Of a DNA stretch of 64,000 bases, positions 5,817 to 36,321 are shown piece by piece. Each line of letters begins with the position of its first letter. Positions within the stretch are counted from its first letter, which is position 1. Source of the DNA: Salinispora pacifica CNR114 (GTDB taxonomy: Bacteria > Actinomycetota > Actinomycetes > Mycobacteriales > Micromonosporaceae); contig NZ_AZWO01000017.1 of assembly GCF_000514775.1 (NCBI RefSeq), positions 1 through 64,000 on the forward strand, read 5' to 3'. The notes under the pieces were generated by a model. That model saw only the letters and a program-made list of their open reading frames with translations. It was not told the DNA's origin and did not search any database. A program made the position numbers and the translations under genes.

Positions 5817-6309
5817 CATTTGTACCTCCGAGCGGACAGTGCTGCGCAAACCAAACGTGCGTATCATCGACTACCGATCTCCCGGACCGGCTGAGAAACG
5901 CCCGGCAATGCCCGAATCGGCCAAATCTCCCCTGCCCGAACGCTGGCCGTCGAGGGGTGTGCCGAAAGGCCACCATTGAGGTCGATGCCCTGAGCTCGGG
6001 AGCGGTCTGTCTGATAGATGCCTGTTTGAGGGGTGACCGGGGTCGCGGTGGGGGACGGAATCGTGGCGGGCGCCGGGGCGTTACACCATGCGTACGACCG
6101 AGGAAGTGCCCCGCCGTAAGCGGGGACGGCCGCCGGGAATGGCGGTGGCCGGCCGGTCGTTATCTCCGGACCGGCGCCGTGCGTGTCCCGACGAGACCCG
6201 CGGTCGCCGACCTATCCCTTGGTTCTTTGAGCGCCGGACGGTGCTTGTACCCCGCTCCCGACCCCCTTCGGGTGCGTGTGGGTGTCGACCCCCGAATGGA
6301 GCAACACTC
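5817..6309 (+). other. Gene-free region with GC-rich hairpins, leader of the secreted lysozyme-like gene
   Basis: About 490 bases between divergent genes. It contains a CCCCGC/GCGGGG hairpin (6109-6125), a second stem around 6147-6180 built from GCCGGTC and GACCGGC arms, and a GGTGTCGACCCCC segment close to the start codon. Length and structure suggest a structured 5' leader. I do not recognise a known riboswitch. Confidence 0.4.
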
Positions 6310-6927
6310 ATGAACACGATCATGTTGCGTAGTGCGCTTGGTATTGCTGGTCTGGCCTTCGGTGCCGGTGTGGTCGCTGGTCCCCAGGCCTTCGACACCA
6401 GCACCGATTCCACCCCCACCCCCACCCCGAGCGCGTCGGCGGCCTCGACCACCGCGGCGGCCGCGGTGCCGGCGGAGAAGCCGGACATGGGCACGCTGAT
6501 CCCGCACGGTACGCAGGGTGAGCAGTCGCGGATCGACCTGGGTGGCGAGCAGACCGGCAACGTGAGAGCCATCATCGAGGCCACGAAGGCCGCTGGCATG
6601 GACGAGCGGGCCGCCGTGGTGGCGATCGCCACCAGTCTGCAGGAGTCGAAGCTGGAGAACCTGGGTCACCTGGGTGCGCGTAACGACCACGACTCGCAGG
6701 GCCTGTTCCAGCAGCGTCCGTCGTCTGGTTGGGGCACGGTGGAGCAGATCACCGACCCCGCCTACTCCACCACCGCTTTCCTGGAGGGTCTGCGGCAGGT
6801 CGAGGGCTGGCAGGACATGCCGTTGACCGAGGCCGCGCAGAAGGTGCAGGTGTCGGCGTTCCCGTTCCACTACGCCCAGTGGGAGACCCAGGCCGCTGAC
6901 CTGGTGGCCGAGCACTGGACCAGCTGA
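6310..6927 (+). CDS. Secreted lysozyme/transglycosylase-like protein
   Basis: 205 residues. A signal peptide (hydrophobic 10-24) is followed by a Thr/Pro/Ser/Ala linker (29-56) and a conserved ~110-residue actinobacterial domain. That domain has an SLQESKLENL motif (Glu112 sits where lytic transglycosylases have their catalytic Glu), GLFQQRPSSGWG and a C-terminal ADLVAEHW. Relatives are often mislabelled as metal transporters, but the sequence is soluble and secreted. The probable function is binding or cleaving peptidoglycan. ATG 6310 has GGAG at SD distance. The gene follows a long leader and ends 37 bases before a strong terminator. Confidence 0.7.
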   Translation: MNTIMLRSALGIAGLAFGAGVVAGPQAFDTSTDSTPTPTPSASAASTTAAAAVPAEKPDMGTLIPHGTQGEQSRIDLGGEQTGNVRAIIEATKAAGMDERAAVVAIATSLQESKLENLGHLGARNDHDSQGLFQQRPSSGWGTVEQITDPAYSTTAFLEGLRQVEGWQDMPLTEAAQKVQVSAFPFHYAQWETQAADLVAEHWTS

Positions 6928-6964
6928 CCCAAACCCGTAGACCTAACCCACAAGGAGAAAGACA

Positions 6965-7001
6965 CTGTTGGCCGGCACCCGGTTCGGGTGTCGGCCAACA
7001 G
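6965..7001 (+). terminator. 17-bp stem terminator, twin copy 1
   Basis: Arms 6965-6981 and 6985-7001 pair fully (one G-U) around loop GTT. A 30-base stretch (6970-6999) is identical to 7581-7610, so the same terminator module flanks the acetyltransferase gene on both sides. Confidence 0.85.
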
Positions 7002-7050
7002 CTCTCTCTGGAGCGCGCTGCCGGTTTTAGGAGGAGGTGACCAACGCCCG

Positions 7051-7536
7051 ATGACGATTCGTGAGTTCCAGGAAGCCGACTGGCCGCAGGTCTGGCCGAT
7101 CCTCCGGGAAGTCGTACGGGCTCAGGAGACGTTCACGTACGATCCGAACCTCTCCCCTGACGAGGCGCGTGAGGTGTGGATCGAGCCAGCACCCGGGTTG
7201 ACCGTCGTCGCGGTTAGGAGTGAGCGGGTCCTGGGCAGCGCGAAAATGGGTACGAATCGGGCGGGACCCGGGTCGCATGTCTGCACGGCCAGCTTCATCG
7301 TGGCCGCCGGCGCCCGCGGGCAGGGGGTCGGCACCGCGTTGTGCCGCTTCGCGCTGGACTGGGCTCACCAGCGCGGGTACGCCGGCATGCAGTTCAACGC
7401 CGTTGCCGCGTCGAACCGGACTGCGGTGTCGGTGTACGAGCGGCTCGGCTTCCGTATCGTCGGTACGGTGCCGGGTGCGTTCGCTCACCCGACGTTTGGT
7501 CGGGTCGGTCTGCACGTGATGTACCAGGAGCTCTGA
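7051..7536 (+). CDS. GNAT-family N-acetyltransferase
   Basis: 161 residues, single GNAT domain. The acetyl-CoA binding loop is GARGQGVGTALC (motif A, Q/RxxGxG/A), and motif B is in ASNRTAVSVYERLGF near the C-terminal third. It resembles phosphinothricin/amino-acid N-acetyltransferases of the YncA type, but the substrate cannot be assigned. ATG 7051 follows an AGGAGGAGGTGA tract at 7030-7040 with slightly long spacing. Twin terminators on both sides make it a monocistronic unit. Confidence 0.85.
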   Translation: MTIREFQEADWPQVWPILREVVRAQETFTYDPNLSPDEAREVWIEPAPGLTVVAVRSERVLGSAKMGTNRAGPGSHVCTASFIVAAGARGQGVGTALCRFALDWAHQRGYAGMQFNAVAASNRTAVSVYERLGFRIVGTVPGAFAHPTFGRVGLHVMYQEL

Positions 7537-31057: not shown

Positions 31058-32296
31058 CTATGCCGGCTGGGTGCGGAGGTAACGGCCGAAGTGGGGCACC
31101 GTGAACGCCACCGTACCGCGTTCACCGGAGTAGATGAGACCCTTTTTGATCAGTGCGTCCCGAGCCGGGGAGAGGCTTGCGGGCTTGCGCCCCAGCGCGC
31201 GGGCGATCTCGGCGGTCGGCACGGCCGCGTCCATGTCATCCGGGGTGCCCACGTCCGTACCGTCAACCAGGGAGAGGGTCGCCATCGCCCGCATGTACTC
31301 GCGTTCGGCCGGAGTGGCTCGCTCGAACCGGGAGCCGAAGAAGCCCACCGCCAGTTCGGCCTCGGCGTCCGGCGCCGCCACCCGGACGTCGGCGGCGGTG
31401 ATCGGTGAGCGGGGAGCGTGGTCCCAGGTCGTCTTTCCGTACGCCTGGACGAAGTAGGGATAGCCGCCGGACTTCTCGTAGAGCAGGTCGAGCGCCTTCT
31501 GCTCGTACTCGATCTCCTCGCGCGCAGCAGGCGCGCAGAGCGCCTGGTCGGCGGCGACCCGGTCGAGTCGATCGATGCGCTGGTAGCGGAAGAGCCGTTC
31601 GGAGTACGATTTCGCCGCGCTGAGCACAGCCGGAAGGTGCGGCAGCCCGGCACCGACCACGATCAGTGGCGCGCCGAGTTGGGACAGCTCGTGGCAGGCG
31701 GCACAGAGCGCGGAGACCTCCTCCGGGGCGAGGTCCTGCATCTCGTCGATGAAGACGGCGACGCCGGTACCGACGTCGGCGGCCACCGCGGCGGCGTCGG
31801 TCAGCAGCTCCACCAGGTCGATCTCGATGTCGCCGGAGTCGGCCCGCCCGCTCGCGGCGGGGACATCGATGCCGGGTTGCCACCGGTCCCGTAGCCGGGG
31901 GGAGGTCCCGCCCCGCCCGCTCGGGGCGGATCGTTGTGCGAAGGCCTTCAGGACACCGAGGAAGGCGTCGATCCGGTCTGGAGCGCGGTGCCGGGGGGCC
32001 AGCTCGCGCACGGCCATGTGGAGGGCGGCCGAGATCGGTCGGCGCAGCGACTGATCTGGCCGGATTTCGATCTTGCCGCTGCCCCAGAGTCGGTTGATGG
32101 CCTGCGACCGGAGCGTGTTGAGCAGCACCGTCTTGCCCACGCCGCGTAGCCCGGTGAGCATCAGGCTGCGCTCTGGTCGGCCGCGCGCGATCCGCTCCAG
32201 CACGATGTCGAAGACGTCCAGCTCCCGCCCGCGCCCGGCCAGCTCGGGCGGGCGTTGCCCGGCGCCCGGAGCGTAGGGATTGCGGATCGGATCCAC
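31058..32296 (-). CDS. Orphan AAA ATPase of the Orc1/Cdc6-like (AAA_16) type
   Basis: 412 residues. Walker A GLRGVGKTVL (about 49-58), Walker B VAVFIDEMQDLAPEE, a sensor-like VVGAGLPHLP, a GGYPYFVQAYG segment, and a C-terminal winged-helix part (EIARALGRKPASLSPARDALIKKGLI) that could bind DNA. This resembles archaeal Orc-like and STAND-related ATPases used in regulation or defence; no partner gene is adjacent. GTG 32296 is used. Upstream lie two matched palindromes (32315-32338 and 32394-32417), suggesting tight control. Why a single ATPase has such an elaborate promoter is unclear. Confidence 0.8.
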   Translation of the reverse strand: MDPIRNPYAPGAGQRPPELAGRGRELDVFDIVLERIARGRPERSLMLTGLRGVGKTVLLNTLRSQAINRLWGSGKIEIRPDQSLRRPISAALHMAVRELAPRHRAPDRIDAFLGVLKAFAQRSAPSGRGGTSPRLRDRWQPGIDVPAASGRADSGDIEIDLVELLTDAAAVAADVGTGVAVFIDEMQDLAPEEVSALCAACHELSQLGAPLIVVGAGLPHLPAVLSAAKSYSERLFRYQRIDRLDRVAADQALCAPAAREEIEYEQKALDLLYEKSGGYPYFVQAYGKTTWDHAPRSPITAADVRVAAPDAEAELAVGFFGSRFERATPAEREYMRAMATLSLVDGTDVGTPDDMDAAVPTAEIARALGRKPASLSPARDALIKKGLIYSGERGTVAFTVPHFGRYLRTQPA

Positions 32297-33065: not shown

Positions 33066-36000
33066 TCAGACCAGGCGGAGCTGACGATCCTTGGGGCGGC
33101 GGGACTCCGGTTCCCCGAGGCGTTCGAAGAGCCCCGGATCTATTGCGGACAAGAATGGCGAGGGTCGACAGTCGTACTCGGCGCCGTGCCGAAATCGCCG
33201 GGCGGCGTGGCTGAGGTAGAGCCGATCCTGCGCCCGGGTCACCCCCACGAAGAAGAGCCGTCGCTCTTCGGCGACCGCGTCGTCGTCCGGCTCGCTACCG
33301 GGCCAGCGCAGCGGCAACAGCCCGTCCTCGGCGCCGACCAGGAAGACCACCGGGAACTCCAGCCCCTTGGCGGCATGCAGAGTGAGCAGGGTGACCGCCT
33401 GCGCGCGTGGATCGAGCGCGTCCACCTCCGCCCCCGTCGCCAGCTGGGACAGGAACAGGTCCAGGTCATCGCCGCAGCGCCGGGCCAGCGGGGTGAGCAG
33501 GTCGACCGCCACCCGTACGTCGGTCGGCCCGGCGGTGCCCGAACCGTCGAGGGTGGGGGTGGCGAACCGTTGCGCGACCACCTGGCCGGCGAGCCGAACC
33601 CGAGCCGGCAGGCCACCGTCGACGCCGCCGGTGTGCCGCAACTCCCGGGCGATCTCGGCGACGCCGGGGCGGTCACGGAGCCGGTCATGAGAGCGCTTCT
33701 GTACCGGGATGTTCGCCCGGGACAGCGCGTCCACGATCGGTGCGGCCTGCGCGTCGGTGCGGTAGAGCACCGCGATGTCGGAGAACGAGAGCGTGCTCGC
33801 GGCGCCGTCGATCCGCCCCGAATCCAGCGAGCGGTGCGACAGCCCACCGACCAACTCGTCCACCGTACGGGCGACGAAGGTGGCCTCGTCGGCGACGGAG
33901 ATGGCCGCGTACCGCCCGAGCAGCGGGGCCTCCGGGTCGAGTCGGGCCGGGTCCAGCCGGCGGCCCCGGACCAACGACGTCGGGGCGATCGCCTGCACCG
34001 CGGCGGCCAGGATCGGTGCCGACGAACGGTAGTTGCGGTTCAGCCGGACCAGCCGGGCATCGGTGAAGTCCTGCGAGAAGCGCAGGAAGTAGCGGACATC
34101 GGCGCCCCGGAAGGAGTAGATCGCCTGGTCCGGGTCGCCGATCGCGCAGAGGTTCCCGTCGGCGGGGCTGAGCAACCGGAGGAGCTCGTACTGCACCTCG
34201 TCAACGTCCTGGTACTCGTCAACGAAGATCCACTGCCATCGTTCGCGATAGGAGTCGGCCAACCGCCGATCGGCTCGCAGCAGGGTCAGCGGCAGGGTGA
34301 GCAGCTCGTCCAGGTCGACCAGGTCCTGCTTGCGGAGCAGCGCCAGATAGGTGCCGTCGTCGTCGCCGGCCTCGGCCCGGGCGGCGGCACGGTCCGCGTC
34401 GTCGGCGATCCGGAAGTTCGCCGGCAGGCCAGCGGCCGCATGGTTCTCCCGCAGGAGCTGTAGGCCGACGGAGTGGAACGTGCCGACGGTGACGTCCTCG
34501 GCGACCGGCCCGAGTAGCCCGTCGAGTCGGTGCCGCAGCTCCTCGGCGGCGCGTCGGGTGAAGGTGATCGCCAGGCAGCGCTCCGGGAAGACGTTCAGCT
34601 CCGCGCAGAGGTACGCGATCCGGTGCGTCAGCGTACGGGTCTTGCCGGTGCCCGGACCGGCCACGATCAGCAGCGGCCCGCCGGGCGCGGCCGCGGCCAC
34701 TCGCTGCATCGCGTCCAACCGGTCGAGCAGGCCGGTGCCGACCTCCTCCATCCCGGACAGCATCGGCTCGAAGGGCTCGTGCGGCGAGGGGGGTGGTGCG
34801 ATCGGCGGCGAGGGTGGGCTGACCCGCCTCGGCTCCGGCTTCGTCGCCGGGCGGCGGGCCTTCGGCTTCGGGGTCGGGGTCGGTTCCGCGGGACGGCGCG
34901 GCGCCGGCACGGCGGGTACGTCGAAGAGGGTCTCCTGCGCTGCCGAGCCCCCGCCGGGGCGGATTTCGGTCGGGTCGAAGAGGGTGATCACGCCGTACTC
35001 GCCATCGAAGCCCGAGACCCGGCGGACCTCCCCCCGACGAAGCCGGCGGATGCCCTCGGCGAGGAGTTCGCCGCCGACCCGGTCGATCTCCGCGAGCGGC
35101 GTCCGAGTGAGGATCTCCAGCTCCGGGCCGAGCGCGGCGATCAGGTCGTTGAGCTTGCCCGCGACCTTCTTGGAACGCGCCCCCACCGTGTTGATCTCAC
35201 CGAGGAGTTCGGCCAGTGGCACCAGGTGGGTGACGTCCCGGGCGTGCGCCGGCCGGTGCCCCACGGGTCGGTCGGCCAACTCCTCCACCCGGTTGAGGAC
35301 CCCGACGGTCAGCGGCTTGCCGCACTCCGGGCAGCGGCCGCCCGCCGCCCGGGTCTGCTCCGGCGCCCAGTTGACCCCGCAGAGTCGGTGGCCGTCCGCG
35401 TGGTACTTCCCCTCTTCCGGGAAGAACTCGATCGTCCCGGCCAGGCCGTCGCCGGTCCGCAGCGCCTCCCGGATGGCGAAGTAGTCGCGGGCGGAGCTGA
35501 AGACCGTCGCCTCTCGGGCCAGCGCGGGCGGCGAGTGGGCGTCGGAGTTCGACACCAGCTGGTAGCGGTCGAGGCTGCCGACCCGCCAGTTCATCTCCGG
35601 ATCGGAGGAGAGGCCGGTCTCCACCGCGAAGATGTGCTCGGCCAGGTCGGCGTAGCAGTCGGCGATCGCGTCGAAGCCGGACTTGGAGCCGAGGGCGGAG
35701 AACCACGGCGTCCAGATGTGCGCCGGTACGAGGTAGCCGTCCGGGCTCGCCGCGAGGGTGATCTCCAGCAGGTCGCGGGAGTCCAGGCCGAGGATCGGCC
35801 GTCCGTCCGAGCCGAGGTTGCCGATCCGCCCGAGCGCCGTGTTGAACCGGGCCACCGCCGCCAGGTCCGGTAGGTAGACCAGGTGGTGCACCTTGCGCGT
35901 CCGGTCGCCGCGTTTGTAGATCGTGGAGATCTCGACGCTGAGCATGAACCGTACCGGGGTGTGCTCCGCCTCGTCGGCGAGGCGCGGCGGTAGCTGGCGA

Positions 36001-36260
36001 GCGATCTCCCGTTCGGCCTCCGGAGCGAGTCGGTACAGGCCCGGCTCCGCCGGCTGCAGGGTCTCCCGCAGGTGGTCATACCAGGCGGGGTGGGTGAAGT
36101 CGCCGGTGCCGAGGACGGCGACGCCCTTGCGCCGAGCCCACCAGGCGAGGTTCGGCAGGGTGAGATCACGGCTGCACGCCCGCGAGTACTTCGAGTGGAT
36201 GTGCAGGTCCGCGACGAAGGACGGGAGGCCACCGGGGGGTGCGGCGTTGATCGGAGGCAC
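33066..36260 (-). CDS. Fusion of an endonuclease Q-like PHP nuclease and a UvrD/Rep-type DNA helicase
   Basis: 1064 residues from GTG 36260 (SD-like GCAGGA at 36266-36271; a GTG at 36284 would add eight). Residues 15-430 resemble endonuclease Q (TIGR00375). PHP metal motifs are VADLHIHSKYSRA (17-29), GTGDFTHPAW (51-60), SVEIS (108-112), PAHIWTPW (179-186) and SNSDAHSP (237-244). A zinc-finger region has C294, C310 and C313, followed by LTVGVLNRVEELADRP. A Pro/Lys linker (about 450-500) leads to a full superfamily 1 helicase: AGPGTGKT (Walker A, about 534-541), AITFTRRAAEELR, IFVDEYQDVDEVQ, GDPDQAIYSFRGA, LTLHAAKGLEFPVVFLVG and FFVGVTRAQDRLYLSHA. EndoQ cuts 5' of deaminated bases; the helicase could then unwind the flap. 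Part of a minus-strand run with moaA-moaD. Confidence 0.9.
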   Translation of the reverse strand: MPPINAAPPGGLPSFVADLHIHSKYSRACSRDLTLPNLAWWARRKGVAVLGTGDFTHPAWYDHLRETLQPAEPGLYRLAPEAEREIARQLPPRLADEAEHTPVRFMLSVEISTIYKRGDRTRKVHHLVYLPDLAAVARFNTALGRIGNLGSDGRPILGLDSRDLLEITLAASPDGYLVPAHIWTPWFSALGSKSGFDAIADCYADLAEHIFAVETGLSSDPEMNWRVGSLDRYQLVSNSDAHSPPALAREATVFSSARDYFAIREALRTGDGLAGTIEFFPEEGKYHADGHRLCGVNWAPEQTRAAGGRCPECGKPLTVGVLNRVEELADRPVGHRPAHARDVTHLVPLAELLGEINTVGARSKKVAGKLNDLIAALGPELEILTRTPLAEIDRVGGELLAEGIRRLRRGEVRRVSGFDGEYGVITLFDPTEIRPGGGSAAQETLFDVPAVPAPRRPAEPTPTPKPKARRPATKPEPRRVSPPSPPIAPPPSPHEPFEPMLSGMEEVGTGLLDRLDAMQRVAAAAPGGPLLIVAGPGTGKTRTLTHRIAYLCAELNVFPERCLAITFTRRAAEELRHRLDGLLGPVAEDVTVGTFHSVGLQLLRENHAAAGLPANFRIADDADRAAARAEAGDDDGTYLALLRKQDLVDLDELLTLPLTLLRADRRLADSYRERWQWIFVDEYQDVDEVQYELLRLLSPADGNLCAIGDPDQAIYSFRGADVRYFLRFSQDFTDARLVRLNRNYRSSAPILAAAVQAIAPTSLVRGRRLDPARLDPEAPLLGRYAAISVADEATFVARTVDELVGGLSHRSLDSGRIDGAASTLSFSDIAVLYRTDAQAAPIVDALSRANIPVQKRSHDRLRDRPGVAEIARELRHTGGVDGGLPARVRLAGQVVAQRFATPTLDGSGTAGPTDVRVAVDLLTPLARRCGDDLDLFLSQLATGAEVDALDPRAQAVTLLTLHAAKGLEFPVVFLVGAEDGLLPLRWPGSEPDDDAVAEERRLFFVGVTRAQDRLYLSHAARRFRHGAEYDCRPSPFLSAIDPGLFERLGEPESRRPKDRQLRLV

Positions 36261-36321
36261 GAGGCATCCTGCCACAAAGCCCACGTCCTACGCTCGCCGC
36301 CACGCGCTCACGTGAGCTGCA

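Follow-up and report, generated by a model that had tools for sequence, protein, structure and literature searches.

Is a single polypeptide that joins a nuclease of the endonuclease Q (EndoQ) type to a UvrD-type helicase a repair enzyme for deaminated DNA, and how widespread and how old is such a combination? The question is raised by one gene in a 64 000-nucleotide stretch of the genome of the actinobacterium Salinispora pacifica CNR114 (contig NZ_AZWO01000017.1, positions 1 to 64 000; hereafter, the window), which a preliminary description had read as such a fusion. Both domain assignments and the fusion itself are borne out. The two domains were already known, and it is their fusion that appears to be new. 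The protein is probably a clamp-tethered nick-and-unwind repair enzyme that acts on deaminated bases and abasic sites. The grounds for this reading are computed, namely, the fold match, the catalytic and ATPase residues, the fusion, its conservation and the clamp-like motifs; the lesion specificity, the polarity at the nick, the clamp binding and the pathway are what we infer. The broader proposition, that this is an ancient, single-origin, clamp-bound chain for glycosylase-free excision repair, found in at least nine phylum-level groups, which recognizes deaminated DNA, nicks it and unwinds from that nick, has, in our judgment, an even chance of being correct. The gene and its parts are located in the window as follows:

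33066..36284, minus strand, EndoQ-helicase fusion gene, a single unbroken open reading frame (ORF), start codon uncertain
34962..36218, minus strand, EndoQ-type PHP nuclease with zinc finger, residues 15-433 (TIGR00375, phmmer, structure superposition)
34740..34961, minus strand, Pro-rich linker, residues 434-507 (mostly very low model confidence, pLDDT)
33105..34739, minus strand, superfamily 1A (UvrD/PcrA-like) helicase with shortened 1B and 2B, residues 508-1052 (Pfam, PcrA alignment, structure)

An ORF scan agrees with the unbroken frame initially claimed: there is a single intact minus-strand frame, with in-frame GTG start candidates at 36284, 36275 and 36260, which comprises 1072 amino acids from the first and 1064 amino acids (P0001) from the last, the start chosen in the preliminary description. 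Residue numbers below are those of P0001, counted from GTG 36260. Opposing plus-strand frames overlap the gene, and the three longest of these (493, 447 and 377 amino acids) match no Pfam family. The fusion had been thought to be uncharacterized and, within the open-access literature on EndoQ or PHP proteins with UvrD (subscription papers not covered), no description of it was found; specifically, the excerpts of PMC8307549, PMC7776575 and PMC3820547 contain none.

The EndoQ half

The N-terminal half matches the EndoQ of P. furiosus (PfuEndoQ, 5zb8) with a phmmer E-value of 2e-42, and a profile constructed from seven relatives matches 5zb8 at 7e-65 over chain residues 6-383. Two checks suggested in the preliminary description, a profile search and a structural superposition, gave concordant results: the N-terminal half matches TIGR00375, below its cut-off, the C-terminal half matches the UvrD family (PF00580 and PF13361), and the two halves superpose on EndoQ and UvrD, respectively. 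The AlphaFold2 model, built from an alignment of 17 full-length fusions, has a mean predicted local distance difference test (pLDDT) score of 77 and a predicted template modeling (pTM) score of 0.51, with very low pLDDT in the linker, and informs on each half rather than on the placing of the halves relative to one another. All three domains of the EndoQ fold (PHP, zinc-finger and C-terminal) are present in the model, which superposes on 5zb8_B with a Z-score of 38.8 and a root-mean-square deviation (rmsd) of 2.8 over 378 residues. The score of the EndoQ half against TIGR00375, a hypothetical equivalog of NCBIfam, is 146.4 bits, compared with the cut-off of 326.6; in a Desulfobacterota-type sample of 198 genomes, none reaches this cut-off, even with stand-alone forms counted, so that the fusion is to be considered EndoQ-like and outside that equivalog. 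The key elements of this half are:

36192..36203, minus strand, PHP motif HIHS with H20 and H22 (PfuEndoQ alignment)
35880..35936, minus strand, zinc ligand stretch with E110 (Pfu E76) and H125 (Pfu H84) (alignment; mutational data in PMC8307549)
35712..35726, minus strand, PAHIW with H181 (Pfu H139, zinc ligand and steric gate) (alignment; PMC8307549)
35607..35621, minus strand, ETGLS with G216 and S218 (Pfu G169 and S171, steric gate of the base pocket) (alignment; PMC8307549)
35535..35546, minus strand, SDAH with D240 (Pfu D193) and H242 (PfuEndoQ alignment)
35319..35390, minus strand, zinc finger H291-x2-C294 ... C310-x2-C313 (PfuEndoQ alignment)

Nine residues of PfuEndoQ (H8, H10, D42, H84, H139, G169, S171, D193 and H195) are identical in P0001 (H20, H22, D54, H125, H181, G216, S218, D240 and H242, respectively), and a tenth, E76, aligns with E110 in the profile alignment, so that the four residues by which EndoQ was judged (Pfu E76, H84, H139 and D193) are all accounted for (E110, H125, H181 and D240). 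All ten metal, catalytic and pocket residues are invariant across the 17 full-length fusions. The PHP metal motifs initially recognized in this half are therefore genuine, with ligands identical to those of PfuEndoQ and no loss of any. According to the excerpts of PMC8307549, the E76A, H84A and H139A mutations abolish the activity of PfuEndoQ, and H139, G169 and S171 bar T and A from its pocket; in PMC6202378, D192, the counterpart of Pfu D193, is called essential. The conservation of residues whose alanine mutants inactivate PfuEndoQ, along with the retention of the steric gate, counts in favor of a repair function. As for substrates, PfuEndoQ also cleaves abasic sites and oxidised pyrimidines (PMC8307549), and the enzymes of B. 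pumilus and M. acetivorans are reported to be active on U and hypoxanthine (PMC6202378).

The finger was initially described as Cys-rich, which holds for its position and not for its full set of ligands: the four-cysteine arrangement (CPxCG type) of EndoQ is missing, with C249 of PfuEndoQ replaced by H291, so that the finger is of the His-Cys-Cys-Cys type. The same finger is found in a stand-alone bacterial EndoQ (L001). Relative to PfuEndoQ, the E110-H125 loop has 7 additional residues.

The linker and the helicase half

The linker, initially labeled Pro/Lys, is better described as Pro-rich, with 22 Pro among the 74 residues 434-507. The C-terminal half matches PF00580 (E-value 5e-64) and PF13361 (3e-30), as well as PcrA (1pjr), Rep and UvrD, and the model of this half superposes on D. 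radiodurans UvrD (4c30_D) with a Z-score of 44.5 and an rmsd of 2.4 over 508 residues. The NCBIfam equivalog cut-offs are not reached, either for pcrA (368.6 versus 911.2 bits) or for uvrD (306.3 versus 1144.45). The following elements were located in the alignment of the fusions:

34638..34661, minus strand, helicase motif I AGPGTGKT
34206..34223, minus strand, helicase motif II VDEYQD
33813..33851, minus strand, VGGLSHRSLDSGR insertion, with GG in 37 of 37 fused helicases compared and not in aligned PcrA
33354..33383, minus strand, helicase motif V TLHAAKGLEF
33228..33248, minus strand, helicase motif VI VGVTRAQ

The fold together with motifs I, Ia, II, III, IV, V and VI places this half in superfamily 1A; the motifs read GPGTGKT, DEYQD, GDPDQAIYSFRGA, LNRNYRS, TLHAAKGLEF and VGVTRA, with core residues invariant in the 17 full-length fusions. 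Of the claim that the helicase is complete with all motifs, the motifs stand and the completeness does not: compared with PcrA, 1B is ∼45 and 2B ∼70 residues shorter, as read from alignment gaps. The GG insertion has the form VGG...DSGR in the window, and DSGR itself varies among the fused helicases; L056 (see below) and three canonical helicases have no comparable stretch.

Clamp-binding-like motifs

The fusion contains two short motifs that resemble those binding the sliding clamp:

34923..34937, minus strand, QETLF directly after the EndoQ domain, weakly clamp-binding-like (loose pattern only)
33069..33083, minus strand, QLRLV at the extreme C-terminus, clamp-binding-like (motif comparison among fusions)

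Shiraishi and colleagues (PMC4858679) have already noted beta-clamp motifs at the ends of bacterial EndoQs, and report that PCNA stimulates archaeal EndoQ via a C-terminal PCNA-interacting protein (PIP) motif. Of 20 fused proteins, 15 have the loose motif Qxx[LMI][FLMVI] immediately behind the EndoQ domain (shuffle mean, 1.6), and it is also present in 48 of 58 uncut tails of EndoQs that stand alone or adjacent to a helicase gene (shuffle mean, 4.5); the pentamer at the QETLF site is present in 2 of 18 actinobacterial relatives. What is new here is a second, predicted clamp-binding-like motif, of the QLxLF type, that ends the helicase half. Within the final 30 residues, its strict form, Q[LMI]x[LM][FLV], is present in 15 of the 16 fusions from outside the actinobacteria and in 12 of the 18 from within, and the loose form in 15 of 16 and 18 of 18, respectively. 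Among the last 30 residues of 269 unrelated ORFs from the same loci, the strict motif was detected once and the loose one six times, and none of the 269 has the strict motif at the very end. The end motif is also absent from the PcrA and the second UvrD-like helicase of the same genome and from E. coli UvrD; two other outgroup helicases are cut at the C-terminus.

Retention and decay of the gene within the family

In the family of the window (Micromonosporaceae), a TIGR00375 search detects the gene in 52 of 61 genomes. Open frames of at least 900 amino acids account for 49 of these 52 matches, and the three shorter frames (464, 503 and 750 amino acids) come from assemblies of about 800 contigs. 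Among 17 family loci, moaA is near the fusion in 14, a metallophosphoesterase gene in 12, an AAA gene in 11 and any of the three in 15. The retention in 52 of 61 genomes with common neighbors at 15 of 17 loci speaks for inheritance at a fixed site. The AAA_16 ATPase gene of the window (31058-32296, minus strand) lies two genes downstream of the fusion, and its product is 81-92% identical (best piece) across the 11 loci that have it, a conservation that exceeds the fusion's own. Across the phylum, 9 of 296 sampled genomes match, including six fusions or cut fusions (own genome included), one stand-alone form (L001) and two weak matches to other PHP proteins (G125 and G201).

Eight of the family's nine EndoQ-less genomes were searched, and all eight hold a frame of 397-425 amino acids that matches fusion residues about 440-600 and 672-810 (in L124 at about 5978-7195, and in L125, L126 and L127, as well as in G298, G340, G307 and G308); the window's own genome has no frame of this type. 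The two aligned remnants lack EndoQ, 1B and 2B; the end of the linker and the Walker A region are strongly conserved, DEYQD has become DDLHD and the C-terminal end is QPRLL. At 2 of 4 loci, moaA adjoins the remnant. The fused gene, then, seems to shrink in place and not to split into two working halves. The segment LSGMEEVGTGLLDRLD, which covers the linker end and the helicase start (window 34713-34760, minus strand), is identical in the window and the two aligned remnants, unlike the remaining linker, which differs.

The preliminary description proposed a survey of the fusion against ung and nfi. Uracil-DNA glycosylase (UDG) is found in all 61 family genomes, with two matching places in that of the window, and endonuclease V (EndoV) scores above 100 bits in 27 of 52 genomes with the fusion versus 7 of 9 without it (Fisher p 0.28); at any score, EndoV matches in 53 of 61, the window's genome not being among them. 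Replacement of ung or nfi by the fusion was rejected, there being no clear association with either enzyme in the family. Since UDG is retained in the genome, the fusion would be an extra route. Besides the fusion, the genome encodes a PcrA-like, a second UvrD-like and two AdnAB-like proteins, named from length and identity.

Spread across bacteria

When GTDB-species contigs were scanned with a mixed EndoQ alignment, at least 583 stretches were confirmed, of which the best 80 were kept; these were scored against a stand-alone row, so that fractions among them are not frequencies. In 20 of these 80 loci, EndoQ is fused to a related helicase, 5 have a helicase directly beside it and 55 have none joined. 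Three of these five are two-gene pairs: in L056 the genes are separated by a short gap, in L091 they overlap (TAATG) and in L098 a hairpin-like stretch lies between them. The other two, L072, with a frame change in a poly-A run, and L084, with an in-frame TAG, are more readily explained as broken fusions. The lone TAG of L084, a fusion in a metagenome-assembled genome of Ruminococcaceae, is located at about 6907-6909 in a LNPEQ-AAV stretch and reflects a broken gene, an assembly error or read-through. Among the 20 fused loci, L062, L077 and L081 are cut by a contig end and L092 has a frame break.

Most of the best 80 loci are metagenome bins, and an individual locus may therefore be assigned to the wrong phylum. 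The fused records are named Deltaproteobacteria/Desulfobacterales, Chloroflexi/Anaerolineae, KSB1, Fibrobacteres, Elusimicrobia, Prolixibacteraceae, Pirellulaceae and Lachnospiraceae; the fusion thus extends past the actinobacteria and, the window's group counted, is found in nine phylum-level groups. Desulfonema magnum (L088), which carries the fusion, is represented by a complete isolate genome. In the Desulfobacterota-type sample of its phylum, 133 of 198 genomes match EndoQ, and the 132 frames listed include 51 of at least 850 amino acids, called fused from length alone, 73 of 380-520 amino acids, 4 between and 4 shorter. The phylum of L087 (Chloroflexota-type sample) has EndoQ in 2 of 101 genomes, one long enough for a fusion.

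Separation of the two halves in most relatives had been named as evidence that would count against the fusion. It is not seen in the window's family, where nearly all frames are long, but over all bacteria the stand-alone form is the commoner one (55 of the best 80 loci; 73 versus 51 frames in the Desulfobacterota-type sample). Stand-alone EndoQ is abundant in Patescibacteria and Omnitrophota records among the best 80 loci (L021-L100), which goes far past the archaea and ‘some limited groups in Bacteria' mentioned in the excerpt of PMC6202378. The fused loci range from 34 to 70% GC, with 8 of 20 under 50%, compared with 38 of 55 stand-alone loci. There is a lean of the fusion toward GC-rich hosts, mixed up with kinship, and the original motive, a GC-rich and hence deamination-prone genome, is weakened rather than rejected, with eight fused loci below 50% GC.

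Phylogeny and origin of the coupling

The EndoQ tree includes 96 rows, after removal of L004 (the window), L010 (same gene as L007), L017 (start cut) and, on the basis of score, L008 and L009, which are other PHP proteins. In this tree, with the bootstrap not fully settled, a 100/100 branch splits 54 stand-alone forms from 42 others, namely, 35 fused, 5 adjacent (L072 and L084 counted here) and 2 stand-alone (L041 and L046), so that nearly all stand-alone forms belong to a clade separate from the coupled ones. When PfuEndoQ serves as a long outgroup in a quick tree, these 42 rows make up a clade with a Shimodaira-Hasegawa-like approximate likelihood ratio test (SH-aLRT) value of 99. Truncated rows, including L091 and L029, were omitted from the helicase tree, as were seven copies that are duplicate or partial; this tree repeats the main subgroups: actinobacteria with Pirellulaceae; KSB1 with Fibrobacteres and L098; Elusimicrobia with Prolixibacteraceae; Desulfobacterales. 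The fused helicases are apart from PcrA/UvrD, save the weakly placed L056 and a Bacillota pair, and the PcrA of the window's genome pairs with that of Tsukamurella, an actinomycete.

Because the coupled forms lie on one side of the 100/100 branch, the coupling looks ancient and probably has one origin. For the helicase partner, a single origin is likely rather than certain, the base of its tree being weak and both L056 and the Bacillota pair falling outside the principal group of fused forms. The simplest reading is one coupling event followed by splits, losses and some lateral spread.

Proposed function and alternatives

Under the proposed repair mechanism, the EndoQ half would flip out a uracil, hypoxanthine, xanthine or abasic site and cut 5' of the lesion, leaving a 3'-OH. 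The flexible linker and the sliding clamp would hold at the nick the helicase half which, running 3'-5', most simply along the intact strand, would peel off the lesion-bearing strand from its 5' end. A polymerase would then resynthesize the strand, and the repair would be completed by ligase together with either a flap nuclease or another incision. The term ‘self-contained repair pathway' used in the preliminary description is an overstatement, given that the fusion would still depend on a polymerase, a ligase and either flap removal or a second cut. The persistence of the coupling, as a fusion over nine groups and as a gene pair in three loci, counts for the repair function. A number of observations weigh against it: the EndoQ half falls short of the TIGR00375 cut-off and has a His-Cys3 finger in place of four Cys; UDG coexists with the fusion; most EndoQ relatives across bacteria have no helicase; the predicted internal QxxLF motif is weak in actinobacteria, and the actinobacterial end motif appears QLRLL-like, not QLxLF; finally, the helicase remnant lingers without EndoQ, so that part of the second half may function or persist alone.

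Some of these observations would fit an EndoQ of the coupled clade with a different main substrate (for example, abasic sites alone, oxidised pyrimidines or some replication structure) served by the helicase, which we regard as possible, if rather unlikely. The 100/100 branch that sets this clade apart from stand-alone bacterial EndoQ, the sub-threshold TIGR00375 score, the presence of UDG and the activity of PfuEndoQ itself on abasic sites and oxidised pyrimidines are all compatible with such a shift. However, the steric-gate residues H139, G169 and S171, said to exclude T and A (PMC8307549), are unchanged, the B. pumilus and M. acetivorans enzymes act on U and hypoxanthine (PMC6202378), and the His-Cys3 finger does not distinguish the coupled clade, since it is shared by the stand-alone L001. 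The shortened 1B and 2B point to another alternative, in which the helicase half chiefly clears obstacles (RNA polymerase or nucleoprotein) or regulates the nuclease rather than acting as a processive motor. The remnants of ∼400 amino acids in all eight EndoQ-less relatives searched agree with this, as do the Walker A region and C-terminal end kept in the two aligned remnants along with the change of DEYQD to DDLHD; the invariant core residues of motifs I to VI in the 17 full-length fusions do not, and we deem it distinctly improbable.

A defense function, whereby the protein would cut and unwind phage or other mobile DNA bearing uracil or hypoxanthine, is least likely of all. Such a role has been proposed for Bacillus EndoQ (PMC8307549), the occurrence outside the family is patchy (9 of 296 phylum genomes; 2 of 101 Chloroflexota-type genomes), and neighbors of defense or mobile kinds are found in other phyla, namely, Uma2 (L099) and two genes of Desulfonema magnum:

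L088 4037-4702, Vsr mismatch endonuclease gene, upstream of the fusion
L088 9801-10550, weak sub-threshold AbiEii match, downstream of the fusion

The remaining 14 of 17 neighbors (ten loci in other phyla), however, share no common defense theme and are mostly housekeeping genes. In the window's family, the gene is far from patchy, does not occupy an island-like or mobile position and keeps the company of moaA, the phosphoesterase or the AAA gene at 15 of 17 loci. The helicase half does score with the GajB models of PADLOC, which is to be expected of any UvrD-like helicase; among the matches listed, 25 of 52 matching families, the models are UvrD-type ones of the GajB kind, and a defense identity on this basis was rejected. 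The three PHROGs families detected all match the helicase half. Of 72,556 plasmid records, 788 match, no place in any of them covers 80% of the protein, and among the matches listed (20 rows), the helicase half alone is matched; in viral contigs, 48 stretches fit a pattern and none is a relative.

If the repair reading is correct, EndoQ, usually presented as archaeal, would constitute a large family in bacteria, one branch of which is coupled to a helicase; its range is widened to many bacterial phyla. The fusion offers gene-fusion evidence that incision and unwinding go together, and makes the post-incision step testable on one purified protein. Stand-alone EndoQ proteins are at times labeled UvrD helicases, and the fusion might explain such labels.

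Comparison with known systems

The window protein shares with the known EndoQs (P. furiosus PF1551, T. kodakarensis TK0887, B. pumilus and M. acetivorans) the fold, the PHP ligands, the catalytic and steric-gate residues, the position of the zinc finger and, in putative form, the clamp-type motif after the domain. The Thermococcales enzymes, in contrast, stand alone at 421-424 amino acids, whereas the window protein has the finger His, the longer E110-H125 loop and an appended helicase. With the superfamily 1A helicases UvrD, PcrA and Rep, it shares the motifs and the fold, and it differs from PcrA in the shorter 1B and 2B, the GG-containing insertion and the QLxLF-type end, with the chain stopping about where the PcrA match stops (PcrA residue 650 of 724). 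In the model of PMC4357722, EndoQ incision is followed either by strand displacement and flap cutting, or by a second cut and ‘removal by helicase activity', with the helicase left unnamed in the excerpt; the fusion provides a candidate for this step. The likeness to mismatch repair is in the order of events. There, MutH or MutL makes the nick, and UvrD then unwinds 3'-5' from it; in the fusion, recognition, nick and motor would reside in one polypeptide, and the signal would be a damaged base.

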